64,000 bases of DNA, taken from assembly GCA_958299035.1 (NCBI GenBank), contig CATQJL010000223.1, positions 54,914,302 to 54,978,301 on the forward strand. The letters run 5' to 3'. Position numbers and translations under genes: made by a program. Below the pieces are notes generated by a model. The model worked only from the letters and a program-made list of their open reading frames with translations, had not been told where the DNA came from and ran no database searches. Below are positions 6,453 through 64,000 of this stretch, piece after piece. The DNA comes from Cylicocyclus nassatus. Its lineage: Eukaryota > Nematoda > Chromadorea > Rhabditida > Strongylidae. Position 1 is the first letter of the stretch, and every line of letters begins with the position of its first letter.

Positions 6453-6460
6453 TCCCATAA

Positions 6461-6922: not shown

Positions 6923-6948
6923 TTCTCAGCGATGCGAATGCGATCGGT

Positions 6949-7003
6949 GGTCCCGTGGTGTAGCGGTTAGCACTCAGGACTCTGTATCCTGCGCAAGGTC
7001 TCC
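6949..7003 (+). pseudogene. first array copy, truncated tRNA-Gln (base 37 = T)
   Basis: The array starts with a truncated copy. It has the 5' acceptor strand, D arm and anticodon arm (CUG, but T at position 37) and then jumps from TGCG straight to the spacer CAAGGTCTCC. The T-arm, 3' acceptor strand and terminator are missing. Other T37 truncated copies start at 7391, 8615, 12841, 16111, 28026 and 29423. Several of these carry a CATTTTCAG spacer variant whose TTTT could act as a late Pol III stop. Confidence 0.85.
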
Positions 7004-7084
7004 AATACTTCGTCATTTTCAGGAGGGCTTTGCGATGAGGATAGAATGGAAAACCGTTCTCAGCGATGCGAATGCGATCGGTTC

Positions 7085-7156
7085 GGTCTCGTGGTGTAGC
7101 GGTTAGCACTCAGGACTCTGAATCCTGCGACGTGAGTTCAAATCTCACCGGGACCT
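7085..7156 (+). tRNA. tRNA-Gln (CUG), first full-length copy
   Basis: Full cloverleaf, but with T at position 5 (GGTCTCG), giving a U5-G68 wobble. It follows the longer GGTTCGG linker. That linker is otherwise absent from the left third of the array and reappears near 21081. It is probably functional or nearly so. Confidence 0.93.
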
Positions 7157-7524
7157 AGTCTTTTGCGCAAGGTCTTCAATACTTCGTCATCGTCAAGAGG
7201 GCTTTGCGATGAGGATAGAATGGAAAACAGTTCTCAGCGATGCGAATGCGATCGGTGGTCCCGTGGTGTAGCGGTTAGCACTCAGGACTCTGGATCCTGC
7301 GCAAGGTCCTCAATACTTCGTCATCGTCAAGAGGGCTTTGCGATGAGGATAGAATGGAAAACAGTTCTCAGCGATGCGAATGCGATCGGTGGTCCCGTGG
7401 TGTAGCGGTTAGCACTCAGGACTCTGTATCCTGCGCAAGGTCTCCAATACTTCGTCATTTTCAGGAGGGCTTTGCGATGAGGATAGAATGGAAAACCGTT
7501 CTCAGCGATGCGAATGCGATCGGT

Positions 7525-7596
7525 GGTCCCGTGGTGTAGCGGTTAGCACTCAGGACTCTGAATCCTGCGACGTGAGTTCAAATCTCACCGGGACCT
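7525..7596 (+). tRNA. tRNA-Gln (CUG), canonical copy
   Basis: Reference copy. The acceptor stem GGTCCCG/CGGGACC is perfectly paired with T at position 73. The D stem is GTGT/GCAC, and the anticodon stem CAGGA/TCCTG holds loop CTCTGAA (anticodon CUG, A37). The variable loop is CGAC and the T arm is GTGAG-TTCAAAT-CTCAC. There is no intron and no encoded CCA, as usual in eukaryotes. It decodes CAG as glutamine. The sequence closely follows the animal tRNA-Gln pattern (GTGTA...GGTTAGCACT). Most copies in the array share this exact sequence. Confidence 0.98.
7532..7584 (+). promoter_or_regulatory. internal Pol III A and B boxes of the reference copy
   Basis: The A box TGGTGTAGCGG (7532-7542) and B box core GTTCAAATC (7576-7584) match the TFIIIC-bound internal promoter of type 2 Pol III genes. 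All full-length copies have both. The truncated copies keep only the A box. Confidence 0.85.
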
Positions 7597-7600
7597 AGTC

Positions 7601-7604
7601 TTTT
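7601..7604 (+). terminator. Pol III T4 terminator of the reference copy
   Basis: TTTT lies 4 bp after the mature 3' end (CCT-AGTC-TTTT) and recurs after the full-length copies. It overlaps the palindrome TTTGCGCAAA in units of the AAAGTC spacer class, and TTTGCGCAAG in the AAGGTC class. Confidence 0.85.
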
Positions 7605-7696
7605 GCGCAAGGTCTCTAATACTTCGTCATTGTCAGGAGGGCTTTGCGATGAGGTTAGAATGGAAAACCGTTCTCAGCGATGCGAATGCGATCGGT

Positions 7697-8308: not shown

Positions 8309-8380
8309 GGCCCCGTGGTGTAGCGGTTAGCACTCAGGACTCTGAATCCTGCGACGTGAGTTCAAATCTCACAGGGACCT
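8309..8380 (+). tRNA. tRNA-Gln (CUG) copy with two acceptor-stem mismatches
   Basis: Starts GGCCCCG (C3 opposite A70) and has A66 opposite G7. Two unpaired positions make it a likely poor substrate. It is the only full copy seen with C3. Confidence 0.85.
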
Positions 8381-36034: not shown

Positions 36035-36106
36035 GGTCCCGTGGTGTAGCGGTTAGCACTCAGGACTTTGAATCCTGCGACGTGAGTTCAAATCTCACCG
36101 GGACCT
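36035..36106 (+). tRNA. tRNA-Gln (UUG), anticodon-switched copy
   Basis: The anticodon loop reads CTTTGAA instead of CTCTGAA, so position 34 is T and the anticodon becomes UUG, which reads CAA. The rest of the cloverleaf is fully paired. The base after the gene also differs (CCTACTCTTTT). The amino acid stays glutamine, so glutaminyl-tRNA synthetase would probably still charge it, although the body is that of the CUG isoacceptor. Confidence 0.93.
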
Positions 36107-37275: not shown

Positions 37276-37347
37276 GGTCCCGTGGTGTAGCGGTTAGCAC
37301 TCAGGACTTTGAATCCTGCGACGTGAGTTCAAATCTCACCGGGACCT
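37276..37347 (+). tRNA. tRNA-Gln (UUG), second anticodon-switched copy
   Basis: Same C34-to-T change and same ACTC trailer as the copy 1241 bp upstream. The flanking G41 copies (35310/36551) and 113-bp units (35788/37029) have the same offset, so this is a block duplication and not an independent mutation. Confidence 0.93.
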
Positions 37348-40369: not shown

Positions 40370-43300
40370 AGTCTTTTGCGCAAGGTCTCTAATACTTCGT
40401 CATTGTCAGGAGGGCTTTGCGATGAGGTTAGAATGGAAAACCGTTCTCAGCGATGCGAATGCGATCGGTGGTCCCGTGGTGTAGCGGTTAGCACTCAGGA
40501 CTCTGAATCCTGCGACGTGAGTTCAAATCTCACCGGGACCTAGTCTTTTGCGCAAAGTCTTCAATACTTCGTCATCGTCAAGAGGGCTTTGCGATGAGGA
40601 TAGAATGGAAAACAGTTCTCAGCGATGCGAATGCGATCGGTGGTCCCGTGGTGTAGCGGTTAGCACTCAGGACTCTGGATCCTGCGCAAGGTCTTCAATA
40701 CTTCGTCATCGTCAAGAGGGCTTTGCGATGAGGACAGAATGGAAAACAGTTCTCAGCGATGCGAATGCGATCGGTGGTCCCGTGGTGTAGCGGTTAGCAC
40801 TCAGGACTCTGAATCCTGCGCAAGGTCTTCAATACTTCGCCATCGTCAAGAGGGCTTTGCGATGAGGATAGAATGGAAAACAGTTCTCAGCGATGCGAAT
40901 GCGATCGGTGGTCCCGTGGTGTAGCGGTTAGCACTCAGGACTCTGAATCCTGCGACGTGAGTTCAAATCTCACCGGGACCTAGTCTTTTGCGCAAAGTCT
41001 TCAATACTTCGTCATCGTCAAGAGGGCTTTGCGATGAGGATAGAATGGAAAACAGTTCTCAGCGATGCGAATGCGATCGGTGGTCCCGTGGTGTAGCGGT
41101 TAGCACTCAGGACTCTGGATCCTGCGCAAGGTCTTCAATACTTCGTCATCGTCAAGAGGGCTTTGCGATGAGGATAGAATGGAAAACCGTTCTCAGCGAT
41201 GCGAATGCGATCGGTGGTCCCGTGGTGTAGCGGTTAGCACTCAGGACTCTGAATCCTGCGACGTGAGTTCAAATCTCACCGGGACCTAGTCTTTTGCGCA
41301 AGGTCTCTAATACTTCGTCATTGTCAGGAGGGCTTTGCGATGAGGTTAGAATGGAAAACCGTTCTCAGCGATGCGAATGCGATCGGTGGTCCCGTGGTGT
41401 AGCGGTTAGCACTCAGGACTCTGAATCCTGCGACGTGAGTTCAAATCTCACCGGGACCTAGTCTTTTGCGCAAAGTCTTCAATACTTCGTCATCGTCAAG
41501 AGGGCTTTGCGATGAGGATAGAATGGAAAACAGTTCTCAGCGATGCGAATGCGATCGGTGGTCCCGTGGTGTAGCGGTTAGCACTCAGGACTCTGGATCC
41601 TGCGCAAGGTCTTCAATACTTCGTCATCGTCAAGAGGGCTTTGCGATGAGGACAGAATGGAAAACAGTTCTCAGCGATGCGAATGCGATCGGTGGTCCCG
41701 TGGTGTAGCGGTTAGCACTCAGGACTCTGAATCCTGCGCAAGGTCTTCAATACTTCGCCATCGTCAAGAGGGCTTTGCGATGAGGATAGAATGGAAAACA
41801 GTTCTCAGCGATGCGAATGCGATCGGTGGTCCCGTGGTGTAGCGGTTAGCACTCAGGACTCTGAATCCTGCGACGTGAGTTCAAATCTCACCGGGACCTA
41901 GTCTTTTGCGCAAAGTCTTCAATACTTCGTCATCGTCAAGAGGGCTTTGCGATGAGGATAGAATGGAAAACAGTTCTCAGCGATGCGAATGCGATCGGTG
42001 GTCCCGTGGTGTAGCGGTTAGCACTCAGGACTCTGGATCCTGCGCAAGGTCTTCAATACTTCGTCATCGTCAAGAGGGCTTTGCGATGAGGATAGAATGG
42101 AAAACCGTTCTCAGCGATGCGAATGCGATCGGTGGTCCCGTGGTGTAGCGGTTAGCACTCAGGACTCTGAATCCTGCGACGTGAGTTCAAATCTCACCGG
42201 GACCTAGTCTTTTGCGCAAGGTCTCTAATACTTCGTCATTGTCAGGAGGGCTTTGCGATGAGGTTAGAATGGAAAACCGTTCTCAGCGATGCGAATGCGA
42301 TCGGTGGTCCCGTGGTGTAGCGGTTAGCACTCAGGACTCTGAATCCTGCGACGTGAGTTCAAATCTCACCGGGACCTAGTCTTTTGCGCAAAGTCTTCAA
42401 TACTTCGTCATCGTCAAGAGGGCTTTGCGATGAGGATAGAATGGAAAACAGTTCTCAGCGATGCGAATGCGATCGGTGGTCCCGTGGTGTAGCGGTTAGC
42501 ACTCAGGACTCTGGATCCTGCGCAAGGTCTTCAATACTTCGTCATCGTCAAGAGGGCTTTGCGATGAGGATAGAATGGAAAACAGTTCTCAGCGATGCGA
42601 ATGCGATCGGTTCGGTCCCGTGGTGTAGCGGTTAGCACTCAGGACTCTGGATCCTGCGCAAGGTCTTCAATACTTCGTCATCGTCAAGAGGGCTTTGCGA
42701 TGAGGATAGAATGGAAAACAGTTCTCAGCGATGCGAATGCGATCGGTTCGGTCCCGTGGTGTAGCGGTTAGCACTCAGGACTCTGAATCCTGCGACGTGA
42801 GTTCAAATCTCACAGGGACCTAGTCTTTTGCGCAAAGTCTTCAATACTTCGTCATCGTCAAGAGGGCTTTGCGATGAGGATAGAATGGAAAACCGTTCTC
42901 AGCGATGCGAATGCGATCGGTGGTCCCGTGGTGTAGCGGTTAGCACTCAGGACTCTGAATCCTGCGACGTGAGTTCAAATCTCACCGGGACCTAGTCTTT
43001 TGCGCAAAGTCTTCAATACTTCGTCATCGTCAAGAGGGCTTTGCGATGAGGATAGAATGGAAAACCGTTCTCAGCGATGCGAATGCGATCGGTGGTCCCG
43101 TGGTGTAGCGGTTAGCACTCAGGACTCTGAATCCTGCGACGTGAGTTCAAATCTCACCGGGACCTAGTCTTTTGCGCAAGGTCTCTAATACTTCGTCATT
43201 GTCAGGAGGGCTTTGCGATGAGGTTAGAATGGAAAACCGTTCTCAGCGATGCGAATGCGATCGGTGGTCCCGTGGTGTAGCGGTTAGCACTCAGGACTCT

Positions 43301-43707
43301 GAATCCTGCGACGTGAGTTCAAATCTCACCGGGACCTAGTCTTTTGCGCAAAGTCTTCAATACTTCGTCATCGTCAAGAGGGCTTTGCGATGAGGATAGA
43401 ATGGAAAACAGTTCTCAGCGATGCGAATGCGATCGGTGGTCCCGTGGTGTAGCGGTTAGCACTCAGGACTCTGGATCCTGCGCAAGGTCTCTAATACTTC
43501 GTCATTGTCAGGAGGGCTTTGCGATGAGGTTAGAATGGAAAACCGTTCTCAGCGATGCGAATGCGATCGGTGGTCCCGTGGTGTAGCGGTTAGCACTCAG
43601 GACTCTGGATCCTGCGCAAGGTCTTCAATACTTCGTCATCGTCAAGAGGGCTTTGCGATGAGGATAGAATGGAAAACAGTTCTCAGCGATGCGAATGCGA
43701 TCGGTTC

Positions 43708-46700
43708 GGTCCCGTGGTGTAGCGGTTAGCACTCAGGACTCTGAATCCTGCGACGTGAGTTCAAATCTCACAGGGACCTAGTCTTTTGCGCAAAGTCTTC
43801 AATACTTCGTCATCGTCAAGAGGGCTTTGCGATGAGGATAGAATGGAAAACCGTTCTCAGCGATGCGAATGCGATCGGTGGTCCCGTGGTGTAGCGGTTA
43901 GCACTCAGGACTCTGAATCCTGCGACGTGAGTTCAAATCTCACCGGGACCTAGTCTTTTGCGCAAAGTCTTCAATACTTCGTCATCGTCAAGAGGGCTTT
44001 GCGATGAGGATAGAATGGAAAACCGTTCTCAGCGATGCGAATGCGATCGGTGGTCCCGTGGTGTAGCGGTTAGCACTCAGGACTCTGAATCCTGCGACGT
44101 GAGTTCAAATCTCACCGGGACCTAGTCTTTTGCGCAAGGTCTCTAATACTTCGTCATTGTCAGGAGGGCTTTGCGATGAGGTTAGAATGGAAAACCGTTC
44201 TCAGCGATGCGAATGCGATCGGTGGTCCCGTGGTGTAGCGGTTAGCACTCAGGACTCTGAATCCTGCGACGTGAGTTCAAATCTCACCGGGACCTAGTCT
44301 TTTGCGCAAAGTCTTCAATACTTCGTCATCGTCAAGAGGGCTTTGCGATGAGGATAGAATGGAAAACAGTTCTCAGCGATGCGAATGCGATCGGTGGTCC
44401 CGTGGTGTAGCGGTTAGCACTCAGGACTCTGGATCCTGCGCAAGGTCTTCAATACTTCGTCATCGTCAAGAGGGCTTTGCGATGAGGATAGAATGGAAAA
44501 CAGTTCTCAGCGATGCGAATGCGATCGGTTCGGTCCCGTGGTGTAGCGGTTAGCACTCAGGACTCTGAATCCTGCGACGTGAGTTCAAATCTCACAGGGA
44601 CCTAGTCTTTTGCGCAAAGTCTTCAATACTTCGTCATCGTCAAGAGGGCTTTGCGATGAGGATAGAATGGAAAACCGTTCTCAGCGATGCGAATGCGATC
44701 GGTGGTCCCGTGGTGTAGCGGTTAGCACTCAGGACTCTGAATCCTGCGACATGAGTTCAAATCTCACCGGGACCTAGTCTTTTGCGCAAAGTCTTCAATA
44801 CTTCGTCATCGTCAAGAGGGCTTTGCGATGAGGATAGAATGGAAAACCGTTCTCAGCGATGCGAATGCGATCGGTGGTCCCGTGGTGTAGCGGTTAGCAC
44901 TCAGGACTCTGGATCCTGCGCAAGGTCTTCAATACTTCGCCATCGTCAAGAGGACTTTGCGATGAGGATAGAATGGAAAACAGTTCTCAGCGATGCGAAT
45001 GCGATCGGTGGTCCCGTGGTGTAGCGGTTAGCACTCAGGACTCTGAATCCTGCGACGTGAGTTCAAATCTCACCGGGACCTAGTCTTTTGCGCAAAGTCT
45101 TCAATACTTCGTCATCGTCAAGAGGGCTTTGCGATGAGGATAGAATGGAAAACAGTTCTCAGCGATGCGAATGCGATCGGTGGTCCCGTGGTGTAGCGGT
45201 TAGCACTCAGGACCTCTGGATCCTGCGCAAGGTCTTCAATACTTCGTCATCGTCAAGAGGGCTTTGCGATGAGGACAGAATGGAAAACAGTTCTCAGCGA
45301 TGCGAATGCGATCGGTGGTCCCGTGGTGTAGCGGTTAGCACTCAGGACTCTGAATCCTGCGACGTGAGTTCAAATCTCACCGGGACCTAGTCTTTTGCGC
45401 AAGGTCTCTAATACTTCGTCATTGTCAGGAGGGCTTTGCGATGAGGTTAGAATGGAAAACCGTTCTCAGCGATGCGAATGCGATCGGTGGTCCCGTGGTG
45501 TAGCGGTTAGCACTCAGGACTCTGAATCCTGCGACGTGAGTTCAAATCTCACCGGGACCTAGTCTTTTGCGCAAGGTCTCTAATACTTCGTCATTGTCAG
45601 GAGGGCTTTGCGATGAGGTTAGAATGGAAAACCGTTCTCAGCGATGCGAATGCGATCGGTGGTCCCGTGGTGTAGCGGTTAGCACTCAGGACTCTGAATC
45701 CTGCGACGTGAGTTCAAATCTCACCGGGACCTAGTCTTTTGCGCAAAGTCTTCAATACTTCGTCATCGTCAAGAGGGCTTTGCGATGAGGATAGAATGGA
45801 AAACAGTTCTCAGCGATGCGAATGCGATCGGTGGTCCCGTGGTGTAGCGGTTAGCACTCAGGACTCTGGATCCTGCGCAAGGTCTCTAATACTTCGTCAT
45901 TGTCAGGAGGGCTTTGCGATGAGGTTAGAATGGAAAACCGTTCTCAGCGATGCGAATGCGATCGGTGGTCCCGTGGTGTAGCGGTTAGCACTCAGGACTC
46001 TGGATCCTGCGCAAGGTCTTCAATACTTCGTCATCGTCAAGAGGGCTTTGCGATGAGGATAGAATGGAAAACAGTTCTCAGCGATGCGAATGCGATCGGT
46101 TCGGTCCCGTGGTGTAGCGGTTAGCACTCAGGACTCTGAATCCTGCGACGTGAGTTCAAATCTCACAGGGACCTAGTCTTTTGCGCAAAGTCTTCAATAC
46201 TTCGTCATCGTCAAGAGGGCTTTGCGATGAGGATAGAATGGAAAACCGTTCTCAGCGATGCGAATGCGATCGGTGGTCCCGTGGTGTAGCGGTTAGCACT
46301 CAGGACTCTGAATCCTGCGACGTGAGTTCAAATCTCACCGGGACCTAGTCTTTTGCGCAAAGTCTTCAATACTTCGTCATCGTCAAGAGGGCTTTGCGAT
46401 GAGGATAGAATGGAAAACCGTTCTCAGCGATGCGAATGCGATCGGTGGTCCCGTGGTGTAGCGGTTAGCACTCAGGACTCTGAATCCTGCGACGTGAGTT
46501 CAAATCTCACCGGGACCTAGTCTTTTGCGCAAGGTCTCTAATACTTCGTCATTGTCAGGAGGGCTTTGCGATGAGGTTAGAATGGAAAACCGTTCTCAGC
46601 GATGCGAATGCGATCGGTGGTCCCGTGGTGTAGCGGTTAGCACTCAGGACTCTGAATCCTGCGACGTGAGTTCAAATCTCACCGGGACCTAGTCTTTTGC

Positions 46701-49700
46701 GCAAAGTCTTCAATACTTCGTCATCGTCAAGAGGGCTTTGCGATGAGGATAGAATGGAAAACAGTTCTCAGCGATGCGAATGCGATCGGTGGTCCCGTGG
46801 TGTAGCGGTTAGCACTCAGGACTCTGGATCCTGCGCAAGGTCTTCAATACTTCGTCATCGTCAAGAGGGCTTTGCGATGAGGATAGAATGGAAAACAGTT
46901 CTCAGCGATGCGAATGCGATCGGTTCGGTCCCGTGGTGTAGCGGTTAGCACTCAGGACTCTGAATCCTGCGACGTGAGTTCAAATCTCACAGGGACCTAG
47001 TCTTTTGCGCAAAGTCTTCAATACTTCGTCATCGTCAAGAGGGCTTTGCGATGAGGATAGAATGGAAAACCGTTCTCAGCGATGCGAATGCGATCGGTGG
47101 TCCCGTGGTGTAGCGGTTAGCACTCAGGACTCTGAATCCTGCGACATGAGTTCAAATCTCACCGGGACCTAGTCTTTTGCGCAAAGTCTTCAATACTTCG
47201 TCATCGTCAAGAGGGCTTTGCGATGAGGATAGAATGGAAAACCGTTCTCAGCGATGCGAATGCGATCGGTGGTCCCGTGGTGTAGCGGTTAGCACTCAGG
47301 ACTCTGGATCCTGCGCAAGGTCTTCAATACTTCGCCATCGTCAAGAGGACTTTGCGATGAGGATAGAATGGAAAACAGTTCTCAGCGATGCGAATGCGAT
47401 CGGTGGTCCCGTGGTGTAGCGGTTAGCACTCAGGACTCTGAATCCTGCGACGTGAGTTCAAATCTCACCGGGACCTAGTCTTTTGCGCAAAGTCTTCAAT
47501 ACTTCGTCATCGTCAAGAGGGCTTTGCGATGAGGATAGAATGGAAAACAGTTCTCAGCGATGCGAATGCGATCGGTGGTCCCGTGGTGTAGCGGTTAGCA
47601 CTCAGGACCTCTGGATCCTGCGCAAGGTCTTCAATACTTCGTCATCGTCAAGAGGGCTTTGCGATGAGGACAGAATGGAAAACAGTTCTCAGCGATGCGA
47701 ATGCGATCGGTGGTCCCGTGGTGTAGCGGTTAGCACTCAGGACTCTGAATCCTGCGACGTGAGTTCAAATCTCACCGGGACCTAGTCTTTTGCGCAAGGT
47801 CTCTAATACTTCGTCATTGTCAGGAGGGCTTTGCGATGAGGTTAGAATGGAAAACCGTTCTCAGCGATGCGAATGCGATCGGTGGTCCCGTGGTGTAGCG
47901 GTTAGCACTCAGGACTCTGAATCCTGCGACGTGAGTTCAAATCTCACCGGGACCTAGTCTTTTGCGCAAAGTCTTTAATACTTCGTCATTGTCAAGAGGG
48001 CTTTGCGATGAGGATAGAATGGAAAACAGTTCTCAGCGATGCGAATGCGATCGGTGGTCCCGTGGTGTAGCGGTTAGCACTCAGGACTCTGGATCCTGCG
48101 CAAGGTCTTCAATACTTCGTCATCGTCAAGAGGGCTTTGCGATGAGGATAGAATGGAAAACAGTTCTCAGCGATGCGAATGCGATCGGTGGTCCCGTGGT
48201 GTAGCGGTTAGCACTCAGGACTCTGGATCGTGCGACGTGAGTTCAAATCTCACCGGGACCTAGTCTTTTGCGCAAGGTCTCTAATACTTCGTCATTGTCA
48301 GGAGGGCTTTGCGATGAGGTTAGAATGGAAAACCGTTCTCAGCGATGCGAATGCGATCGGTGGTCCCGTGGTGTAGCGGTTAGCACTCAGGACTCTGAAT
48401 CCTGCGACGTGAGTTCAAATCTCACCGGGACCTAGTCTTTTGCGCAAAGTCTTCAATACTTCGTCATCGTCAAGAGGGCTTTGCGATGAGGATAGAATGG
48501 AAAACAGTTCTCAGCGATGCGAATGCGATCGGTGGTCCCGTGGTGTAGCGGTTAGCACTCAGGACTCTGGATCCTGCGCAAGGTCTTCAATACTTCGTCA
48601 TCGTCAAGAGGGCTTTGCGATGAGGACAGAATGGAAAACAGTTCTCAGCGATGCGAATGCGATCGGTGGTCCCGTGGTGTAGCGGTTAGCACTCAGGACT
48701 CTGAATCCTGCGACGTGAGTTCAAATCTCACCGGGACCTAGTCTTTTGCGCAAAGTCTTTAATACTTCGTCATTGTCAAGAGGGCTTTGCGATGAGGATA
48801 GAATGGAAAACAGTTCTCAGCGATGCGAATGCGATCGGTGGTCCCGTGGTGTAGCGGTTACCACTCAGGACTCTGGATCCTGCGCAAGGTCTTCAATACT
48901 TCGTCATCGTCAAGAGGGCTTTGCGATGAGGATAGAATGGAAAACAGTTCTCAGCGATGCGAATGCGATCGGTTCGGTCCCGTGGTGTAGCGGTTAGCAC
49001 TCAGGACTCTGAATCCTGCGACGTGAGTTCAAATCTCACCGGGACCTAGTCTTTTGCGCAAGGTCTCTAATACTTCGTCATTGTCAGGAGGGCTTTGCGA
49101 TGAGGTTAGAATGGAAAACCGTTCTCAGCGATGCGAATGCGATCGGTGGTCCCGTGGTGTAGCGGTTAGCACTCAGGACTCTGAATCCTGCGACGTGAGT
49201 TCAAATCTCACCGGGACCTAGTCTTTTGCGCAAAGTCTTCAATACTTCGTCATCGTCAAGAGGGCTTTGCGATGAGGATAGAATGGAAAACAGTTCTCAG
49301 CGATGCGAATGCGATCGGTGGTCCCGTGGTGTAGCGGTTAGCACTCAGGACTCTGGATCCTGCGCAAGGTCTTCAATACTTCGTCATCGTCAAGAGGGCT
49401 TTGCGATGAGGACAGAATGGAAAACAGTTCTCAGCGATGCGAATGCGATCGGTGGTCCCGTGGTGTAGCGGTTAGCACTCAGGACTCTGAATCCTGCGCA
49501 AGGTCTTCAATACTTCGCCATCGTCAAGAGGGCTTTGCGATGAGGATAGAATGGAAAACAGTTCTCAGCGATGCGAATGCGATCGGTGGTCCCGTGGTGT
49601 AGCGGTTAGCACTCAGGACTCTGAATCCTGCGACGTGAGTTCAAATCTCACCGGGACCTAGTCTTTTGCGCAAAGTCTTCAATACTTCGTCATCGTCAAG

Positions 49701-52700
49701 AGGGCTTTGCGATGAGGATAGAATGGAAAACAGTTCTCAGCGATGCGAATGCGATCGGTGGTCCCGTGGTGTAGCGGTTAGCACTCAGGACTCTGGATCC
49801 TGCGCAAGGTCTTCAATACTTCGTCATCGTCAAGAGGGCTTTGCGATGAGGATAGAATGGAAAACCGTTCTCAGCGATGCGAATGCGATCGGTTCGGTCC
49901 CGTGGTGTAGCGGTTAGCACTCAGGACTCTGAATCCTGCGACGTGAGTTCAAATCTCACCGGGACCTAGTCTTTTGCGCAAAGTCTTCAATACTTCGTCA
50001 TCGTCAAGAGGGCTTTGCGATGAGGATAGAATGGAAAACAGTTCTCAGCGATGCGAATGCGATCGGTGGTCCCGTGGTGTAGCGGTTAGCACTCAGGACT
50101 CTGGATCCTGCGCAAGGTCTTCAATACTTCGTCATCGTCAAGAGGGCTTTGCGATGAGGATAGAATGGAAAACAGTTCTCAGCGATGCGAATGCGATCGG
50201 TGGTCCCGTGGTGTAGCGGTTAGCACTCAGGACTCTGAATCCTGCGACGTGAGTTCAAATCTCACCGGGACCTAGTCTTTTGCGCAAGGTCTCTAATAAT
50301 TCGTCATTGTCAGGAGGGCTTTGCGATGAGGTTAGAATGGAAAACCGTTCTCAGCGATGCGAATGCGATCGGTTCGGTCCCGTGGTGTAGCGGTTAGCAC
50401 TCAGGACTCTGGATCCTGCGCAAGGTCTTCAATACTTCGCCATCGTCAAGAGGGCTTTGCGATGAGGATAGAATGGAAAACAGTTCTCAGCGATGCGAAT
50501 GCGATCGGTGGTCCCGTGGTGTAGCGGTTAGCACTCAGGACTCTGAATCCTGCGACGTGAGTTCAAATCTCACTGGGACCTAGTCTTTTGCGCAAGGTCT
50601 CTAATACTTCGTCATTGTCAGGAGGGCTTTGCGATGAGGTTAGAATGGAAAACCGTTCTCAGCGATGCGAATGCGATCGGTTCGGTCCCGTGGTGTAGCG
50701 GTTAGCACTCAGGGCTCTGGATCCTGCGCAAGGTCTTCAATACTTCGTCATCGTCAAGAGGGCTTTGCGATGAGGATAGAATGGAAAACCGTTCTCAGCG
50801 ATGCGAATGCGATCGGTGGTCCCGTGGTGTAGCGGTTAGCACTCAGGACTCTGGATCCTGCGCAAGGTCTTCAATACTTCGTCATCGTCAAGAGGGCTTT
50901 GCGATGAGGATAGAATGGAAAACCGTTCTCAGCGATGCGAATGCGATCGGTTCGGTCCCGTGGTGTAGCGGTTAGCACTCAGGACTCTGAATCCTGCGAC
51001 GTGAGTTCAAATCTCACCGGGACCTAGTCTTTTGCGCAAAGTCTTCAATACTTCGTCATCGTCAAGAGGGCTTTGCGATGAGGATAGAATGGAAAACAGT
51101 TCTCAGCGATGCGAATGCGATCGGTGGTCCCGTGGTGTAGCGGTTAGCACTCAGGACTCTGGATCCTGCGCAAGGTCTTCAATACTTCGTCATCGTCAAG
51201 AGGGCTTTGCGATGAGGATAGAATGGAAAACAGTTCTCAGCGATGCGAATGCGATCGGTGGTCCCGTGGTGTAGCGGTTAGCACTCAGGACTCTGAATCC
51301 TGCGACGTGAGTTCAAATCTCACCGGGACCTAGTCTTTTGCGCAAGGTCTCTAATAATTCGTCATTGTCAGGAGGGCTTTGCGATGAGGTTAGAATGGAA
51401 AACCGTTCTCAGCGATGCGAATGCGATCGGTTCGGTCCCGTGGTGTAGCGGTTAGCACTCAGGACTCTGGATCCTGCGCAAGGTCTTCAATACTTCGCCA
51501 TCGTCAAGAGGGCTTTGCGATGAGGATAGAATGGAAAACAGTTCTCAGCGATGCGAATGCGATCGGTGGTCCCGTGGTGTAGCGGTTAGCACTCAGGACT
51601 CTGAATCCTGCGACGTGAGTTCAAATCTCACTGGGACCTAGTCTTTTGCGCAAGGTCTCTAATACTTCGTCATTGTCAGGAGGGCTTTGCGATGAGGTTA
51701 GAATGGAAAACCGTTCTCAGCGATGCGAATGCGATCGGTTCGGTCCCGTGGTGTAGCGGTTAGCACTCAGGGCTCTGGATCCTGCGCAAGGTCTTCAATA
51801 CTTCGTCATCGTCAAGAGGGCTTTGCGATGAGGATAGAATGGAAAACCGTTCTCAGCGATGCGAATGCGATCGGTGGTCCCGTGGTGTAGCGGTTAGCAC
51901 TCAGGACTCTGAATCCTGCGACGTGAGTTCAAATCTCACCGGGACCTAGTCTTTTGCGCAAAGTCTTCAATACTTCGTCATCGTCAAGAGGGCTTTGCGA
52001 TGAGGATAGAATGGAAAACAGTTCTCAGCGATGCGAATGCGATCGGTGGTCCCGTGGTGTAGCGGTTAGCACTCAGGACTCTGGATCCTGCGCAAGGTCT
52101 TCAATACTTCGTCATCGTCAAGAGGGCTTTGCGATGAGGACAGAATGGAAAACAGTTCTCAGCGATGCGAATGCGATCGGTGGTCCCGTGGTGTAGCGGT
52201 TAGCACTCAGGACTCTGAATCCTGCGACGTGAGTTCAAATCTCACCGGGACCTAGTCTTTTGCGCAAGGTCTCTAATACTTCGTCATTGTCAGGAGGGCT
52301 TTGCGATGAGGTTAGAATGGAAAACCGTTCTCAGCGATGCGAATGCGATCGGTGGTCCCGTGGTGTAGCGGTTAGCACTCAGGACTCTGAATCCTGCGAC
52401 GTGAGTTCAAATCTCACCGGGACCTAGTCTTTTGCGCAAAGTCTTCAATACTTCGTCATCGTCAAGAGGGCTTTGCGATGAGGATAGAATGGAAAACAGT
52501 TCTCAGCGATGCGAATGCGATCGGTGGTCCCGTGGTGTAGCGGTTAGCACTCAGGACTCTGGATCCTGCGCAAGGTCTTCAATACTTCGTCATCGTCAAG
52601 AGGGCTTTGCGATGAGGACAGAATGGAAAACAGTTCTCAGCGATGCGAATGCGATCGGTGGTCCCGTGGTGTAGCGGTTAGCACTCAGGACTCTGAATCC

Positions 52701-53171
52701 TGCGCAAGGTCTTCAATACTTCGCCATCGTCAAGAGGGCTTTGCGATGAGGATAGAATGGAAAACAGTTCTCAGCGATGCGAATGCGATCGGTGGTCCCG
52801 TGGTGTAGCGGTTAGCACTCAGGACTCTGAATCCTGCGACGTGAGTTCAAATCTCACCGGGACCTAGTCTTTTGCGCAAAGTCTTCAATACTTCGTCATC
52901 GTCAAGAGGGCTTTGCGATGAGGATAGAATGGAAAACAGTTCTCAGCGATGCGAATGCGATCGGTGGTCCCGTGGTGTAGCGGTTAGCACTCAGGACTCT
53001 GGATCCTGCGCAAGGTCTTCAATACTTCGTCATCGTCAAGAGGGCTTTGCGATGAGGATAGAATGGAAAACAGTTCTCAGCGATGCGAATGCGATCGGTG
53101 GTCCCGTGGTGTAGCGGTTAGCACTCAGGACTCTGAATCCTGCGACGTGAGTTCAAATCTCACCGGGACCT
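43708..53171 (+). tRNA. array block 5: 36 full-length tRNA-Gln genes
   Basis: Full-length copies start at 43708, 43880, 44052, 44224, 44532, 44704, 45010, 45317, 45489, 45661, 46103, 46275, 46447, 46619, 46927, 47099, 47405, 47712, 47884, 48190, 48362, 48668, 48976, 49148, 49588, 49896, 50202, 50510, 50954, 51260, 51568, 51876, 52182, 52354, 52794 and 53100. A66 copies: 43708, 44532, 46103 and 46927, the last in the window. A49 copies: 44704 and 47099. T66 copies (U66-G7 wobble): 50510 and 51568. The 2395-bp block at 43.3-45.4 kb is repeated at 45.7-47.8 kb; 50.2-50.6 recurs at +1058. Confidence 0.95.
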
Positions 53172-53409
53172 AGTCTTTTGCGCAAGGTCTCTAATAATTC
53201 GTCATTGTCAGGAGGGCTTTGCGATGAGGTTAGAATGGAAAACCGTTCTCAGCGATGCGAATGCGATCGGTTCGGTCCCGTGGTGTAGCGGTTAGCACTC
53301 AGGGCTCTGGATCCTGCGCAAGGTCTTCAATACTTCGTCATCGTCAAGAGGGCTTTGCGATGAGGATAGAATGGAAAACCGTTCTCAGCGATGCGAATGC
53401 GATCGGTTC

Positions 53410-56400
53410 GGTCCCGTGGTGTAGCGGTTAGCACTCAGGACTCTGAATCCTGCGACGTGAGTTCAAATCTCACTGGGACCTAGTCTTTTGCGCAAAGTCT
53501 TCAATACTTCGTCATCGTCAAGAGGGCTTTGCGATGAGGATAGAATGGAAAACAGTTCTCAGCGATGCGAATGCGATCGGTGGTCCCGTGGTGTAGCGGT
53601 TAGCACTCAGGACTCTGGATCCTGCGCAAGGTCTTCAATACTTCGTCATCGTCAAGAGGGCTTTGCGATGAGGATAGAATGGAAAACAGTTCTCAGCGAT
53701 GCGAATGCGATCGGTGGTCCCGTGGTGTAGCGGTTAGCACTCAGGACTCTGAATCCTGCGACCTGAGTTCAAATCTCACCGGGACCTAGTCTTTTGCGCA
53801 AAGTCTTCAATACTTCGTCATCGTCAAGAGGGCTTTGCGATGAGGATAGAATGGAAAACAGTTCTCAGCGATGCGAATGCGATCGGTGGTCCCGTGGTGT
53901 AGCGGTTAGCACTCAGGACTCTGGATCCTGCGCAAGGTCTTCAATACTTCGTCATCGTCAAGAGGGCTTTGCGATGAGGATAGAATGGAAAACAGTTCTC
54001 AGCGATGCGAATGCGATCGGTGGTCCCGTGGTGTAGCGGTTAGCACTCAGGACTCTGAATCCTGCGACGTGAGTTCAAATCTCACCGGGACCTAGTCTTT
54101 TGCGCAAGGTCTCTAATACTTCGTCATTGTCAGGAGGGCTTTGCGATGAGGTTAGAATGGAAAACCGTTCTCAGCGATGCGAATGCGATCGGTTCGGTCC
54201 CGTGGTGTAGCGGTTAGCACTCAGGGCTCTGGATCCTGCGCAAGGTCTTCAATACTTCGTCATCGTCAAGAGGGCTTTGCGATGAGGATAGAATGGAAAA
54301 CAGTTCTCAGCGATGCGAATGCGATCGGTGGTGCCGTGGTGTAGCGGTTAGCACTCAGGACTCTGAATCCTGCGACGTGAGTTCAAATCTCACCGGGACC
54401 TAGTCTTTTGCGCAAGGTCTCTAATACTTCGTCATTGTCAGGAGGGCTTTGCGATGAGGATAGAATGGAAAACCGTTCTCAGCGATGCGAATGCGATCGG
54501 TTCGGTCCCGTGGTGTAGCGGTTAGCACTCAGGACTCTGAATCCTGCGACGTGAGTTCAAATCTCACCGGGACCTAGTCTTTTGCGCAAAGTCTTCAATA
54601 CTTCGTCATCGTCAAGAGGGCTTTGCGATGAGGATAGAATGGAAAACAGTTCTCAGCGATGCGAATGCGATCGGTGGTCCCGTGGTGTAGCGGTTAGCAC
54701 TCAGGACTCTGGATCCTGCGCAAGGTCTTCAATACTTCGTCATCGTCAAGAGGGCTTTGCGATGAGGATAGAATGGAAAACAGTTCTCAGCGATGCGAAT
54801 GCGATCGGTTCGGTCCCGTGGTGTAGCGGTTAGCACTCAGGACTCTGAATCCTGCGACGTGAGTTCAAATCTCACCGGGACCTAGTCTTTTGCGCAAAGT
54901 CTTCAATACTTCGTCATCGTCAAGAGGGCTTTGCGATGAGGATAGAATGGAAAACAGTTCTCAGCGATGCGAATGCGATCGGTGGTCCCGTGGTGTAGCG
55001 GTTAGCACTCAGGACTCTGGATCCTGCGCAAGGTCTTCAATACTTCGTCATCGTCAAGAGGGCTTTGCGATGAGGACAGAATGGAAAACAGTTCTCAGCG
55101 ATGAGAATGCGATCGGTGGTCCCGTGGTGTAGCGGTTAGCACTCAGGACTCTGAATCCTGCGACGTGAGTTCAAATCTCACCGGGACCTAGTCTTTTGCG
55201 CAAGGTCTCTAATACTTCGTCATTGTCAGGAGGGCTTTGCGATGAGGTTAGAATGGAAAACCGTTCTCAGCGATGCGAATGCGATCGGTGGTCCCGTGGT
55301 GTAGCGGTTAGCACTCAGGACTCTGGATCCTGCGCAAGGTCTTCAATACTTCGTCATCGTCAAGAGGGCTTTGCGATGAGGATAGAATGGAAAACAGTTC
55401 TCAGCGATGCGAATGCGATCGGTGGTCCCGTGGTGTAGCGGTTAGCACTCAGGACTCTGAATCCTGCGACCTGAGTTCAAATCTCACCGGGACCTAGTCT
55501 TTTGCGCAAAGTCTTCAATACTTCGTCATCGTCAAGAGGGCTTTGCGATGAGGATAGAATGGAAAACAGTTCTCAGCGATGCGAATGCGATCGGTGGTCC
55601 CGTGGTGTAGCGGTTAGCACTCAGGACTCTGGATCCTGCGCAAGGTCTTCAATACTTCGTCATCGTCAAGAGGGCTTTGCGATGAGGATAGAATGGAAAA
55701 CAGTTCTCAGCGATGCGAATGCGATCGGTGGTCCCGTGGTGTAGCGGTTAGCACTCAGGACTCTGAATCCTGCGACGTGAGTTCAAATCTCACCGGGACC
55801 TAGTCTTTTGCGCAAGGTCTCTAATACTTCGTCATTGTCAGGAGGGCTTTGCGATGAGGATAGAATGGAAAACCGTTCTCAGCGATGCGAATGCGATCGG
55901 TTCGGTCCCGTGGTGTAGCGGTTAGCACTCAGGACTCTGAATCCTGCGACGTGAGTTCAAATCTCACCGGGACCTAGTCTTTTGCGCAAAGTCTTCAATA
56001 CTTCGTCATCGTCAAGAGGGCTTTGCGATGAGGATAGAATGGAAAACAGTTCTCAGCGATGCGAATGCGATCGGTGGTCCCGTGGTGTAGCGGTTAGCAC
56101 TCAGGACTCTGGATCCTGCGCAAGGTCTTCAATACTTCGTCATCGTCAAGAGGGCTTTGCGATGAGGATAGAATGGAAAACAGTTCTCAGCGATGCGAAT
56201 GCGATCGGTTCGGTCCCGTGGTGTAGCGGTTAGCACTCAGGACTCTGAATCCTGCGACGTGAGTTCAAATCTCACCGGGACCTAGTCTTTTGCGCAAAGT
56301 CTTCAATACTTCGTCATCGTCAAGAGGGCTTTGCGATGAGGATAGAATGGAAAACAGTTCTCAGCGATGCGAATGCGATCGGTGGTCCCGTGGTGTAGCG

Positions 56401-59400
56401 GTTAGCACTCAGGACTCTGGATCCTGCGCAAGGTCTTCAATACTTCGTCATCGTCAAGAGGGCTTTGCGATGAGGACAGAATGGAAAACAGTTCTCAGCG
56501 ATGAGAATGCGATCGGTGGTCCCGTGGTGTAGCGGTTAGCACTCAGGACTCTGAATCCTGCGACGTGAGTTCAAATCTCACCGGGACCTAGTCTTTTGCG
56601 CAAGGTCTCTAATACTTCGTCATTGTCAGGAGGGCTTTGCGATGAGGTTAGAATGGAAAACCGTTCTCAGCGATGCGAATGCGATCGGTGGTCCCGTGGT
56701 GTAGCGGTTAGCACTCAGGACTCTGAATCCTGCGACGTGAGTTCAAATCTCACCGGGACCTAGTCTTTTGCGCAAAGTCTTTAATACTTCGTCATTGTCA
56801 AGAGGGCTTTGCGATGAGGATAGAATGGAAAACAGTTCTCAGCGATGCGAATGCGATCGGTGGTCCCGTGGTGTAGCGGTTAGCACTCAGGACTCTGGAT
56901 CCTGCGCAAGGTCTTCAATACTTCGCCATCGTCAAGAGGGCTTTGCGATGAGGTTAGAATGGAAAACCGTTCTCAGCGATGCGAATGCGATCGGTTCGGT
57001 CCCGTGGTGTAGCGGTTAGCACTCAGGGCTCTGGATCCTGCGCAAGGTCTTCAATACTTCGTCATCGTCAAGAGGGCTTTGCGATGAGGATAGAATGGAA
57101 AACCGTTCTCAGCGATGCGAATGCGATCGGTTCGGTCCCGTGGTGTAGCGGTTAGCACTCAGGACTCTGAATCCTGCGACGTGAGTTCAAATCTCACCGG
57201 GACCTAGTCTTTTGCGCAAAGTCTTCAATACTTCGTCATCGTCAAGAGGGCTTTGCGATGAGGATAGAATGGAAAACAGTTCTCAGCGATGCGAATGCGA
57301 TCGGTGGTCCCGTGGTGTAGCGGTTAGCACTCAGGACTCTGGATCCTGCGCAAGGTCTTCAATACTTCGTCATCGTCAAGAGGGCTTTGCGATGAGGATA
57401 GAATGGAAAACAGTTCTCAGCGATGCGAATGCGATCGGTGGTCCCGTGGTGTAGCGGTTAGCACTCAGGACTCTGAATCCTGCGACCTGAGTTCAAATCT
57501 CACCGGGACCTAGTCTTTTGCGCAAAGTCTTCAATACTTCGTCATCGTCAAGAGGGCTTTGCGATGAGGATAGAATGGAAAACAGTTCTCAGCGATGCGA
57601 ATGCGATCGGTGGTCCCGTGGTGTAGCGGTTAGCACTCAGGACTCTGGATCCTGCGCAAGGTCTTCAATACTTCGTCATCGTCAAGAGGGCTTTGCGATG
57701 AGGATAGAATGGAAAACAGTTCTCAGCGATGCGAATGCGATCGGTGGTCCCGTGGTGTAGCGGTTAGCACTCAGGACTCTGAATCCTGCGACGTGAGTTC
57801 AAATCTCACCGGGACCTAGTCTTTTGCGCAAGGTCTCTAATACTTCGTCATTGTCAGGAGGGCTTTGCGATGAGGTTAGAATGGAAAACCGTTCTCAGCG
57901 ATGCGAATGCGATCGGTTCGGTCCCGTGGTGTAGCGGTTAGCACTCAGGGCTCTGGATCCTGCGCAAGGTCTTCAATACTTCGTCATCGTCAAGAGGGCT
58001 TTGCGATGAGGATAGAATGGAAAACAGTTCTCAGCGATGCGAATGCGATCGGTGGTGCCGTGGTGTAGCGGTTAGCACTCAGGACTCTGAATCCTGCGAC
58101 GTGAGTTCAAATCTCACCGGGACCTAGTCTTTTGCGCAAGGTCTCTAATACTTCGTCATTGTCAGGAGGGCTTTGCGATGAGGTTAGAATGGAAAACCGT
58201 TCTCAGCGATGCGAATGCGATCGGTTCGGTCCCGTGGTGTAGCGGTTAGCACTCAGGGCTCTGGATCCTGCGCAAGGTCTTCAATACTTCGTCATCGTCA
58301 AGAGGGCTTTGCGATGAGGATAGAATGGAAAACCGTTCTCAGCGATGCGAATGCGATCGGTTCGGTCCCGTGGTGTAGCGGTTAGCACTCAGGACTCTGA
58401 ATCCTGCGACGTGAGTTCAAATCTCACCGGGACCTAGTCTTTTGCGCAAAGTCTTCAATACTTCGTCATCGTCAAGAGGGCTTTGCGATGAGGATAGAAT
58501 GGAAAACAGTTCTCAGCGATGCGAATGCGATCGGTGGTCCCGTGGTGTAGCGGTTAGCACTCAGGACTCTGGATCCTGCGCAAGGTCTTCAATACTTCGT
58601 CATCGTCAAGAGGGCTTTGCGATGAGGATAGAATGGAAAACAGTTCTCAGCGATGCGAATGCGATCGGTGGTCCCGTGGTGTAGCGGTTAGCACTCAGGA
58701 CTCTGAATCCTGCGACGTGAGTTCAAATCTCACTGGGACCTAGTCTTTTGCGCAAGGTCTCTAATACTTCGTCATTGTCAGGAGGGCTTTGCGATGAGGT
58801 TAGAATGGAAAACCGTTCTCAGCGATGCGAATGCGATCGGTTCGGTCCCGTGGTGTAGCGGTTAGCACTCAGGGCTCTGGATCCTGCGCAAGGTCTTCAA
58901 TACTTCGTCATCGTCAAGAGGGCTTTGCGATGAGGATAGAATGGAAAACCGTTCTCAGCGATGCGAATGCGATCGGTTCGGTCCCGTGGTGTAGCGGTTA
59001 GCACTCAGGACTCTGAATCCTGCGACGTGAGTTCAAATCTCACCGGGACCTAGTCTTTTGCGCAAAGTCTTCAATACTTCGTCATCGTCAAGAGGGCTTT
59101 GCGATGAGGATAGAATGGAAAACAGTTCTCAGCGATGCGAATGCGATCGGTGGTCCCGTGGTGTAGCGGTTAGCACTCAGGACTCTGGATCCTGCGCAAG
59201 GTCTTCAATACTTCGTCATCGTCAAGAGGGCTTTGCGATGAGGATAGAATGGAAAACAGTTCTCAGCGATGCGAATGCGATCGGTGGTCCCGTGGTGTAG
59301 CGGTTAGCACTCAGGACTCTGAATCCTGCGACCTGAGTTCAAATCTCACCGGGACCTAGTCTTTTGCGCAAAGTCTTCAATACTTCGTCATCGTCAAGAG

Positions 59401-62400
59401 GGCTTTGCGATGAGGATAGAATGGAAAACAGTTCTCAGCGATGCGAATGCGATCGGTGGTCCCGTGGTGTAGCGGTTAGCACTCAGGACTCTGGATCCTG
59501 CGCAAGGTCTTCAATACTTCGTCATCGTCAAGAGGGCTTTGCGATGAGGATAGAATGGAAAACAGTTCTCAGCGATGCGAATGCGATCGGTGGTCCCGTG
59601 GTGTAGCGGTTAGCACTCAGGACTCTGAATCCTGCGACGTGAGTTCAAATCTCACCGGGACCTAGTCTTTTGCGCAAGGTCTCTAATACTTCGTCATTGT
59701 CAGGAGGGCTTTGCGATGAGGATAGAATGGAAAACCGTTCTCAGCGATGCGAATGCGATCGGTTCGGTCCCGTGGTGTAGCGGTTAGCACTCAGGACTCT
59801 GAATCCTGCGACGTGAGTTCAAATCTCACCGGGACCTAGTCTTTTGCGCAAAGTCTTCAATACTTCGTCATCGTCAAGAGGGCTTTGCGATGAGGATAGA
59901 ATGGAAAACAGTTCTCAGCGATGCGAATGCGATCGGTGGTCCCGTGGTGTAGCGGTTAGCACTCAGGACTCTGGATCCTGCGCAAGGTCTTCAATACTTC
60001 GTCATCGTCAAGAGGGCTTTGCGATGAGGATAGAATGGAAAACAGTTTTCAGCGATGCGAATGCGATCGGTTCGGTCCCGTGGTGTAGCGGTTAGCACTC
60101 AGGACTCTGAATCCTGCGACGTGAGTTCAAATCTCACCGGGACCTAGTCTTTTGCGCAAAGTCTTCAATACTTCGTCATCGTCAAGAGGGCTTTGCGATG
60201 AGGATAGAATGGAAAACAGTTCTCAGCGATGCGAATGCGATCGGTGGTCCCGTGGTGTAGCGGTTAGCACTCAGGACTCTGGATCCTGCGCAAGGTCTTC
60301 AATACTTCGTCATCGTCAAGAGGGCTTTGCGATGAGGACAGAATGGAAAACAGTTCTCAGCGATGAGAATGCGATCGGTGGTCCCGTGGTGTAGCGGTTA
60401 GCACTCAGGACTCTGAATCCTGCGACGTGAGTTCAAATCTCACCGGGACCTAGTCTTTTGCGCAAGGTCTCTAATACTTCGTCATTGTCAGGAGGGCTTT
60501 GCGATGAGGTTAGAATGGAAAACCGTTCTCAGCGATGCGAATGCGATCGGTGGTCCCGTGGTGTAGCGGTTAGCACTCAGGACTCTGAATCCTGCGACGT
60601 GAGTTCAAATCTCACCGGGACCTAGTCTTTTGCGCAAAGTCTTTAATACTTCGTCATTGTCAAGAGGGCTTTGCGATGAGGATAGAATGGAAAACAGTTC
60701 TCAGCGATGCGAATGCGATCGGTGGTCCCGTGGTGTAGCGGTTAGCACTCAGGACTCTGGATCCTGCGCAAGGTCTTCAATACTTCGCCATCGTCAAGAG
60801 GGCTTTGCGATGAGGTTAGAATGGAAAACCGTTCTCAGCGATGCGAATGCGAACGGTTCGGTCCCGTGGTGTAGCGGTTAGCACTCAGGGCTCTGGATCC
60901 TGCGCAAGGTCTTCAATACTTCGTCATCGTCAAGAGGGCTTTGCGATGAGGATAGAATGGAAAACCGTTCTCAGCGATGCGAATGCGATCGGTTCGGTCC
61001 CGTGGTGTAGCGGTTAGCACTCAGGACTCTGAATCCTGCGACGTGAGTTCAAATCTCACCGGGACCTAGTCTTTTGCGCAAAGTCTTCAATACTTCGTCA
61101 TCGTCAAGAGGGCTTTGCGATGAGGATAGAATGGAAAACAGTTCTCAGCGATGCGAATGCGATCGGTGGTCCCGTGGTGTAGCGGTTAGCACTCAGGACT
61201 CTGGATCCTGCGCAAGGTCTTCAATACTTCGTCATCGTCAAGAGGGCTTTGCGATGAGGATAGAATGGAAAACAGTTCTCAGCGATGCGAATGCGATCGG
61301 TGGTCCCGTGGTGTAGCGGTTAGCACTCAGGACTCTGAATCCTGCGACCTGAGTTCAAATCTCACCGGGACCTAGTCTTTTGCGCAAAGTCTTCAATACT
61401 TCGTCATCGTCAAGAGGGCTTTGCGATGAGGATAGAATGGAAAACAGTTCTCAGCGATGCGAATGCGATCGGTGGTCCCGTGGTGTAGCGGTTAGCACTC
61501 AGGACTCTGGATCCTGCGCAAAGTCTTCAATACTTCGTCATCGTCAAGAGGGCTTTGCGATGAGGATAGAATGGAAAACAGTTCTCAGCGATGCGAATGC
61601 GATCGGTGGTCCCGTGGTGTAGCGGTTAGCACTCAGGACTCTGAATCCTGCGACGTGAGTTCAAATCTCACCGGGACCTAGTCTTTTGCGCAAGGTCTCT
61701 AATACTTCGTCATTGTCAGGAGGGCTTTGCGATGAGGTTAGAATGGAAAACCGTTCTCAGCGATGCGAATGCGATCGGTGGTCCCGTGGTGTAGCGGTTA
61801 GCACTCAGGACTCTGAATCCTGCGACGTGAGTTCAAATCTCACCGGGACCTAGTCTTTTGCGCAAAGTCTTTAATACTTCGTCATTGTCAAGAGGGCTTT
61901 GCGATGAGGATAGAATGGAAAACAGTTCTCAGCGATGCGAATGCGATCGGTGGTCCCGTGGTGTAGCGGTTAGCACTCAGGACTCTGGATCCTGCGCAAG
62001 GTCTTCAATACTTCGCCATCGTCAAGAGGGCTTTGCGATGAGGTTAGAATGGAAAACCGTTCTCAGCGATGCGAATGCGATCGGTTCGGTCCCGTGGTGT
62101 AGCGGTTAGCACTCAGGGCTCTGGATCCTGCGCAAGGTCTTCAATACTTCGTCATCGTCAAGAGGGCTTTGCGATGAGGATAGAATGGAAAACCGTTCTC
62201 AGCGATGCGAATGCGATCGGTTCGGTCCCGTGGTGTAGCGGTTAGCACTCAGGACTCTGAATCCTGCGACGTGAGTTCAAATCTCACCGGGACCTAGTCT
62301 TTTGCGCAAAGTCTTCAATACTTCGTCATCGTCAAGAGGGCTTTGCGATGAGGATAGAATGGAAAACAGTTCTCAGCGATGCGAATGCGATCGGTGGTCC

Positions 62401-63832
62401 CGTGGTGTAGCGGTTAGCACTCAGGACTCTGGATCCTGCGCAAGGTCTTCAATACTTCGTCATCGTCAAGAGGGCTTTGCGATGAGGATAGAATGGAAAA
62501 CAGTTCTCAGCGATGCGAATGCGATCGGTGGTCCCGTGGTGTAGCGGTTAGCACTCAGGACTCTGAATCCTGCGACCTGAGTTCAAATCTCACCGGGACC
62601 TAGTCTTTTGCGCAAAGTCTTCAATACTTCGTCATCGTCAAGAGGGCTTTGCGATGAGGATAGAATGGAAAACAGTTCTCAGCGATGCGAATGCGATCGG
62701 TGGTCCCGTGGTGTAGCGGTTAGCACTCAGGACTCTGGATCCTGCGCAAAGTCTTCAATACTTCGTCATCGTCAAGAGGGCTTTGCGATGAGGATAGAAT
62801 GGAAAACAGTTCTCAGCGATGCGAATGCGATCGGTGGTCCTGTGGTGTAGCGGTTAGCACTCAGGACTCTGAATCCTGCGACGTGAGTTCAAATCTCACC
62901 GGGACCTAGTCTTTTGCGCAAGGTCTCTAATACTTCGTCATTGTCAGGAGGGCTTTGCGATGAGGTTAGAATGGAAAACCGTTCTCAGCGATGCGAATGC
63001 GATCGGTTCGGTCCCGTGGTGTAGCGGTTAGCACTCAGGGCTCTGGATCCTGCGCAAGGTCTTCAATACTTCGTCATCGTCAAGAGGGCTTTGCGATGAG
63101 GATAGAATGGAAAACAGTTCTCAGCGATGCGAATGCGATCGGTGGTGCCGTGGTGTAGCGGTTAGCACTCAGGACTCTGAATCCTGCGACGTGAGTTCAA
63201 ATCTCACCGGGACCTAGTCTTTTGCGCAAGGTCTCTAATACTTCGTCATTGTCAGGAGGGCTTTGCGATGAGGTTAGAATGGAAAACCGTTCTCAGCGAT
63301 GCGAATGCGATCGGTTCGGTCCCGTGGTGTAGCGGTTAGCACTCAGGGCTCTGGATCCTGCGCAAGGTCTTCAATACTTCGTCATCGTCAAGAGGGCTTT
63401 GCGATGAGGATAGAATGGAAAACCGTTCTCAGCGATGCGAATGCGATCGGTTCGGTCCCGTGGTGTAGCGGTTAGCACTCAGGACTCTGAATCCTGCGAC
63501 GTGAGTTCAAATCTCACCGGGACCTAGTCTTTTGCGCAAAGTCTTCAATACTTCGTCATCGTCAAGAGGCTTTGCGATGAGGATAGAATGGAAAACAGTT
63601 CTCAGCGATGCGAATGCGATCGGTGGTCCCGTGGTGTAGCGGTTAGCACTCAGGACTCTGGATCCTGCGCAAGGTCTTCAATACTTCGTCATCGTCAAGA
63701 GGGCTTTGCGATGAGGATAGAATGGAAAACAGTTCTCAGCGATGCGAATGCGATCGGTTCGGTCCCGTGGTGTAGCGGTTAGCACTCAGGACTCTGAATC
63801 CTGCGACGTGAGTTCAAATCTCACCGGGACCT
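53410..63832 (+). tRNA. array block 6: 36 full-length tRNA-Gln genes
   Basis: Full-length copies start at 53410, 53716, 54022, 54330, 54504, 54812, 55118, 55424, 55730, 55904, 56212, 56518, 56690, 57134, 57440, 57746, 58054, 58364, 58670, 58980, 59286, 59592, 59766, 60074, 60380, 60552, 60996, 61302, 61608, 61780, 62224, 62530, 62836, 63144, 63454 and 63761. Here full and truncated copies alternate almost one to one, and the TTCGG linker is very common. T66: 53410 and 58670. C49: 53716, 55424, 57440, 59286, 61302 and 62530. G4 (G-G69 mismatch): 54330, 58054 and 63144. The segment 55.2-57.8 kb recurs at +3862. Confidence 0.95.
62836..62907 (+). tRNA. tRNA-Gln (CUG) copy with U6-G67 wobble
   Basis: Starts GGTCCTG; position 6 is T and pairs as a wobble with G67. 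Otherwise canonical. A private change within the 1228-bp repeated block, whose parent at 61608 has C6. Confidence 0.85.
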
Positions 63833-63932
63833 AGTCTTTTGCGCAAAGTCTTCAATACTTCGTCATCGTCAAGAGGGCTTTGCGATGAGGATAGAATGGA
63901 AAACAGTTCTCAGCGATGCGAATGCGATCGGT

Positions 63933-63987
63933 GGTCCCGTGGTGTAGCGGTTAGCACTCAGGACTCTGGATCCTGCGCAAGGTCTTC
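63933..63987 (+). pseudogene. last array copy in the window, truncated tRNA-Gln
   Basis: A G37 truncated copy of the 134-bp type, followed by spacer to base 64000. The array therefore continues past the window. Confidence 0.85.
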
Positions 63988-64000
63988 AATACTTCGTCAT

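Follow-up and report, generated by a model that had tools for sequence, protein, structure and literature searches.

Hundreds of copies of one transfer RNA (tRNA) gene, arranged head to tail, are known from Phytophthora infestans, where all 271 copies of tRNA-Cys(GCA) lie in one array with a unit of 513 nt; for its monomeric arrays on one chromosome, which consist of near-identical repeats, growth by unequal crossing-over has been proposed (PMC9584435; this and the other published systems are described here according to the accessible parts of the papers). In an animal genome, that of Hydractinia, tens or even hundreds of near-identical non-coding RNA copies, tRNAs included, are separated by near-identical spacers (PMC11067881). 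Entamoeba histolytica has long homogenised tandem tRNA arrays of which many copies are suspected to be inactive (PMC2652664), and tandem tRNA genes also form clusters in Arabidopsis (SYY cluster, PMC12308677; tRNA-Cys cluster, PMC10701932). Plant clusters comprise up to 110 tRNA genes (PMC12652284), and in Nematostella and teleosts a survey from 2010 lists clusters with fifty or more members (PMC2888827). Here we describe a tandem array of tRNA-Gln genes in the nematode Cylicocyclus nassatus, found in a window of 64,000 nt (contig CATQJL010000223.1 of assembly GCA_958299035.1, positions 54,914,302 to 54,978,301, forward strand). We favour the reading that it is a satellite-like tandem array of one tRNA-Gln unit whose growth and uniformity are likely due to the unequal exchange of blocks of several units, and that its copies are probably whole through youth and homogenisation and not through selection on each copy.

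ARAGORN predicts 215 tRNA-Gln genes between positions 7085 and 63832 of the window, all on the plus strand, and 215 tRNA matches exceed the gathering score of 29 bits for the Rfam family RF00005; the lowest score among the 79 matches in 41800–64000 is 56.7. The number of full-length copies given in a preliminary description of the locus is thereby confirmed. The same description had assigned all of them to the isoacceptor CUG, which holds for 213 copies but not for the two at 36035–36106 and 37276–37347 (plus strand), where C34T yields the anticodon UUG. An anchor scan tolerating up to three substitutions located 366 unit starts, spaced 113–174 bp apart throughout, and none on the opposite strand. 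As no other spacings occur, nothing is inserted in the array, in agreement with the earlier statement that the copies run head to tail on one strand without another gene or transposon among them. The array (6923–64000, plus strand) begins at 6923, where it is preceded by different sequence, and is, as had also been reported, still open at the window end; in the left flank (1–6900) no 14-mer of the unit consensus was found. It consists of 365 complete units and a last, incomplete one (63908–64000) at the window end. The latter was excluded from the unit statistics, for which the 365 others were aligned; they represent 77 distinct sequences. Besides the 215 full units (37,039 bp in total) there are 150 truncated ones (19,945 bp in total), which the title of the preliminary description did not mention. 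Many copies of one tRNA gene are joined here head to tail by near-identical spacers, as is characteristic of a tandem array of a single isoacceptor, and the repeat structure itself excludes a chance origin. The ratio of observed to expected CpG is 1.17 in the array versus 0.88 in the flank, so there is no sign of methylation-driven CpG loss.

A typical full unit is composed of a tRNA gene of 72 bp and a spacer of 100 bp. All 215 are 172, 173 or 174 bp long. Exactly 172 bp were found for 185 of them, whose mean pairwise identity is 97.5% (the other 30 full units being left out); the period of 172 bp stated earlier applies to these, but not to the longer full units or to the truncated units. Transcription of a tRNA gene by RNA polymerase III (Pol III) needs an A box, a B box, which is the TFIIIC site, and a T-run terminator. 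Together with a cloverleaf and a Gln anticodon these elements are present in the 215 full copies, which in sequence have what is expected of a nuclear tRNA-Gln gene. The tRNA sequence is identical to the consensus in 152 copies, and the A box is unchanged in 209 and changed in 6. That most full copies keep perfect stems and both promoter boxes is true in so far as all stem pairs are intact in 167 and the B box is present in all, but at least one stem pair is broken in the remaining 48. The commonest change in the tRNA is C65A, which opens the G7–C65 pair and occurs, alone or with a second change, in 31 copies. Thirty full units have a short TC insertion directly upstream of the gene. Units with this insertion, full and truncated ones taken together, become commoner rightward: there are 7, 10 and 13 per 40 in the last three 40-unit groups (44505–64000) and 0 to 3 per 40 in six groups further left. 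This rise means that the array changes in type along its length.

The truncated units belong to two types. Type T comprises 141 units of 133–136 bp, all of which share a single junction where 38 bp were lost between two TGCG direct repeats. This deletion takes out the T arm, the B box, the 3' acceptor strand and the T-run terminator. It is also present in the very first unit of the array (6924–7057, plus strand, 134 bp), which is of type T. The nine units of type S (113 bp) have a further deletion, again with one junction common to all of them and different from that of type T. The B box is gone from 150 of the 365 complete units, and a T-run elsewhere in the unit was seen in 10 of these 150. 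The deletion aside, the consensus sequences of T and full units have only two aligned differences, A37G and one spacer site; therefore, type T is either a recent derivative of the full unit or has been homogenised with it. Judged by these elements, the full copies appear competent for Pol III and the T and S copies do not, and some of the full copies may be transcribed.

How the units were multiplied can be read from their order. When the distinct unit sequences are numbered, the longest exact block copy has 15 units (2,395 bp), and its two copies adjoin each other at 43069–45463 and 45464–47858 (plus strand). The exact duplications include blocks of 15, 8 and 7 units, whereas no run in 200 shuffles of the unit order was longer than 5. 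Further copies comprising 6 to 8 units, taken from the 25 longest in the list, lie at offsets between 0.9 and 13 kb. Both truncated types sit inside duplicated blocks together with full units. Full and truncated units alternate more often than at random (250 runs versus 177.7 expected, z = 7.8), a value to be taken as descriptive since copied blocks are not independent. The divergence between 172-bp units is 3.3% at less than 200 bp apart and 2.25% at 200–500 bp apart; such a greater divergence of the nearest units would follow from the copying of blocks made up of dissimilar units. In summary, head-to-tail monomers with block duplications of the kind left by unequal exchange are present, as in a satellite, and from the duplication patterns we infer that blocks of variable size were exchanged unequally.

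Set beside the described systems, the array is similar to that of P. infestans in copy number, in the head-to-tail order and in the near-identity of its repeats, but the unit there is three times longer. For that genome 1,292 predicted pseudogenes are reported, and the accessible parts of the paper report no co-amplified truncated class inside the array (PMC9584435). E. histolytica differs by its 25 array types, in which a unit comprises up to five tRNA genes with short tandem repeats between them, and according to the accessible text pseudogenes are not clearly evident among its copies (PMC2652664), in contrast to the 150 of 365 complete units which are truncated here. A pseudogene is known from the edge of the Arabidopsis Cys cluster (PMC10701932), but the Arabidopsis clusters are smaller, with four genes in the Cys cluster and 27 three-gene units in the SYY cluster (PMC10701932, PMC12308677). 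Strong amplification of a Pol III gene with higher-order blocks and mostly potentially functional copies has also been described for the 5S ribosomal DNA of pike, which however encodes 5S rRNA, exceeds 20,000 copies and is heavily methylated (PMC5437419). As arrays of comparable size have been published, size alone is not new, and the earlier judgement of the locus as exceptional was overstated as to its kind. In the literature searched, which consisted mostly of papers accessible without subscription, we found no array where a truncated tRNA class is co-amplified as it is here. As far as this search goes, what is new is that the unit is very short and that truncated units are co-amplified with full ones within copied blocks.

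The distribution of changes indicates how far individual tRNA copies are under selection. When the 47 haplotypes of full units are joined in a minimum spanning tree, 21 independent changes fall on the 72 tRNA sites and 30 on the 100 spacer sites, giving a tRNA/spacer rate ratio of 0.97 (95% confidence interval 0.53–1.76). The probability of at least 21 tRNA changes is 0.004 if selection had halved the changes and 0.14 if it had removed a quarter of them. Counting only alleles present in two or more copies leaves the balance the same (9 tRNA versus 13 spacer changes), and hence single-copy sequencing errors are not the source of this result. Also, the changes in the 41-position tRNA stub relative to those in the spacer do not differ between truncated (8:25) and full units (11:30; p = 1.0). 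As far as these counts can tell, we conclude that on the time scale of the array single copies are under weak selection or none.

With this, the following course of events can be proposed. Its first step would be the duplication of a single tRNA-Gln gene plus about 100 bp of flank. Loss of the sequence between two TGCG repeats would have left a unit lacking B box and terminator, and this unit would have been carried along as a passenger when blocks that it shared with full units were copied. A second deletion would have led to the 113-bp unit. The number of full copies likely exceeds the need for this tRNA, and most of them would likely be redundant or silenced by chromatin. Precedents point to such a silencing of surplus copies: the SYY cluster of Arabidopsis is silent in most tissues and active in root-tip cells (PMC12308677), the tRNA-Cys cluster is apparently, although not completely, silenced, with epigenetic silencing reported (PMC10701932), and in Entamoeba, too, copies are suspected of being inactive. 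Among the roles suggested in the preliminary description, i.e. dosage, chromatin domain and selfish satellite, the last fits best, considering the co-amplified types without B box, the block duplication and the equal mutation density in tRNA and spacer.

Several observations weigh against a satellite-like array without selection on single copies. None of the 215 full copies shows any change in the B-box region, and each of them has TTTT at most 14 bases 3' of the gene; both are hints of constraint. A constraint removing a quarter of the tRNA changes may exist, as it is compatible with the counts given above. Full units are less diverse per site in the tRNA (0.0080) than in the spacer (0.0350), and over tRNA positions 1–41 their diversity (0.0047) is below that of truncated units (0.0099), although in both comparisons block copying makes the copies non-independent. 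Variants at a frequency of at least 10% occupy one of 72 tRNA sites and seven of 100 spacer sites; set against the sites of rare variants (12 in the tRNA, 13 in the spacer), the difference between tRNA and spacer does not reach significance (p = 0.11). Thus, a constraint may be present that is weak, that dates further back or that applies to the copies in sum. Furthermore, a single regular higher-order period was not found, the best lag (8 units) matching in 10.6% versus 4.9% by chance, and the commonest three-unit word (seven occurrences) is hardly more frequent than the maximum after shuffling (6), while the commonest four-unit word (four occurrences) only equals it (4). A regular higher-order period is a feature of some satellites but not of all. 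Finally, full units make up 20 to 28 of each successive 40 complete units and are never in the minority.

Among the alternatives, the one which fares best is a dosage array, in which selection for a high output of tRNA-Gln(CUG), constitutive or in a special tissue, maintains the copy number and the truncated units are tolerated passengers. It would account for the B box and terminator kept in every full copy, for the 167 copies with every stem pair and for the tRNA diversity being below that of the spacer. A precedent exists in the root-tip active SYY cluster, the deletion of which alters a Ser/Tyr/Pro-rich glycoprotein in the root tip (PMC12308677). However, independent changes are not depleted in the tRNA relative to the spacer, at least one stem pair is disrupted in 48 full copies and 150 complete units are without B box, and we therefore regard this explanation as unlikely. 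Somewhat less likely still appears the possibility that the tRNA gene has turned into a true satellite monomer, so that units with and without B box, alternating in copied blocks, would form a spaced TFIIIC-binding chromatin domain which would spread independently of tRNA output. Improbable in our view is a chromatin element: the full copies would bind TFIIIC and the array would act as a boundary, a condensin-loading or a heterochromatin domain, whatever tRNA is made. A human tRNA tandem repeat at 1q23.3 has been proposed as a boundary (PMC4041453), and the B box kept in every full copy would suit such a role, but its loss from 150 of the 365 complete units does not.

The exact block of 2,395 bp present twice side by side could also come from the assembler, which would have multiplied blocks of an array that is in reality much shorter. 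We consider such an expansion very improbable: there are 77 distinct complete unit sequences, block duplications overlap partly and at many offsets, and the longest exact block is presumably far below the length of current long reads. Moreover, an error of this type would alter the length of the array and not its existence. Hardly credible is a tRNA-Gln-derived short interspersed element (SINE) that became tandem by happenstance, for although Schistosoma mansoni has 2,342 tRNA-Gln-TTG-like copies classed as SINE elements (PMC2770079), all units here are closely spaced head to tail on a single strand, no 14-mer is common to the flank and the unit consensus, and the truncated classes lack the B box; it was rejected as the main explanation. 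A viral or prokaryotic origin was rejected as well: the exact spacer pattern had no match in viral and genome contigs and the exact tRNA pattern none in viral contigs, in searches restricted to exact matches, by which diverged relatives are missed and from which records of the same genome were possibly excluded.

The left flank contains several other repeats. Two arms of 34 nt (501–534 and 1292–1325), 88% complementary and 757 nt apart, form an inverted repeat which we take to resemble the ends of mariner-type elements. A second inverted repeat has arms of 140 nt (4797–4936 and 5130–5269), 79% complementary and 193 nt apart; the structure at 4797–5269 is possibly a non-autonomous transposon. 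Directly left of the array start lies an imperfect direct repeat of 39 nt (6755–6793 and 6875–6913, 74%), and the segment 6755–6913 could be the trace of an earlier local duplication at this border. On the minus strand at about 1730–2076, reading by eye suggests putative exons that share one frame and are separated by short introns. Short introns that end in TTTTCAG would fit a nematode. For the joined protein of 81 amino acids from the predicted exons of the left flank a homologue search found none, and ten open reading frame stretches of the flank (74 open reading frames being listed) gave a single weak Pfam match, below its cut-off.

Annotation-based counts of tRNA genes can be inflated by arrays of this kind. 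With their natural sequence barcodes, such as the variants A14G, C34T, G48C and C65A, the units could make concerted evolution, the spread of truncated passengers and the silencing of surplus tRNA genes measurable at one locus. Since genes that look intact and two deletion derivatives occur in the same copied blocks, this locus may have caught a Pol III gene in the course of turning into a satellite.

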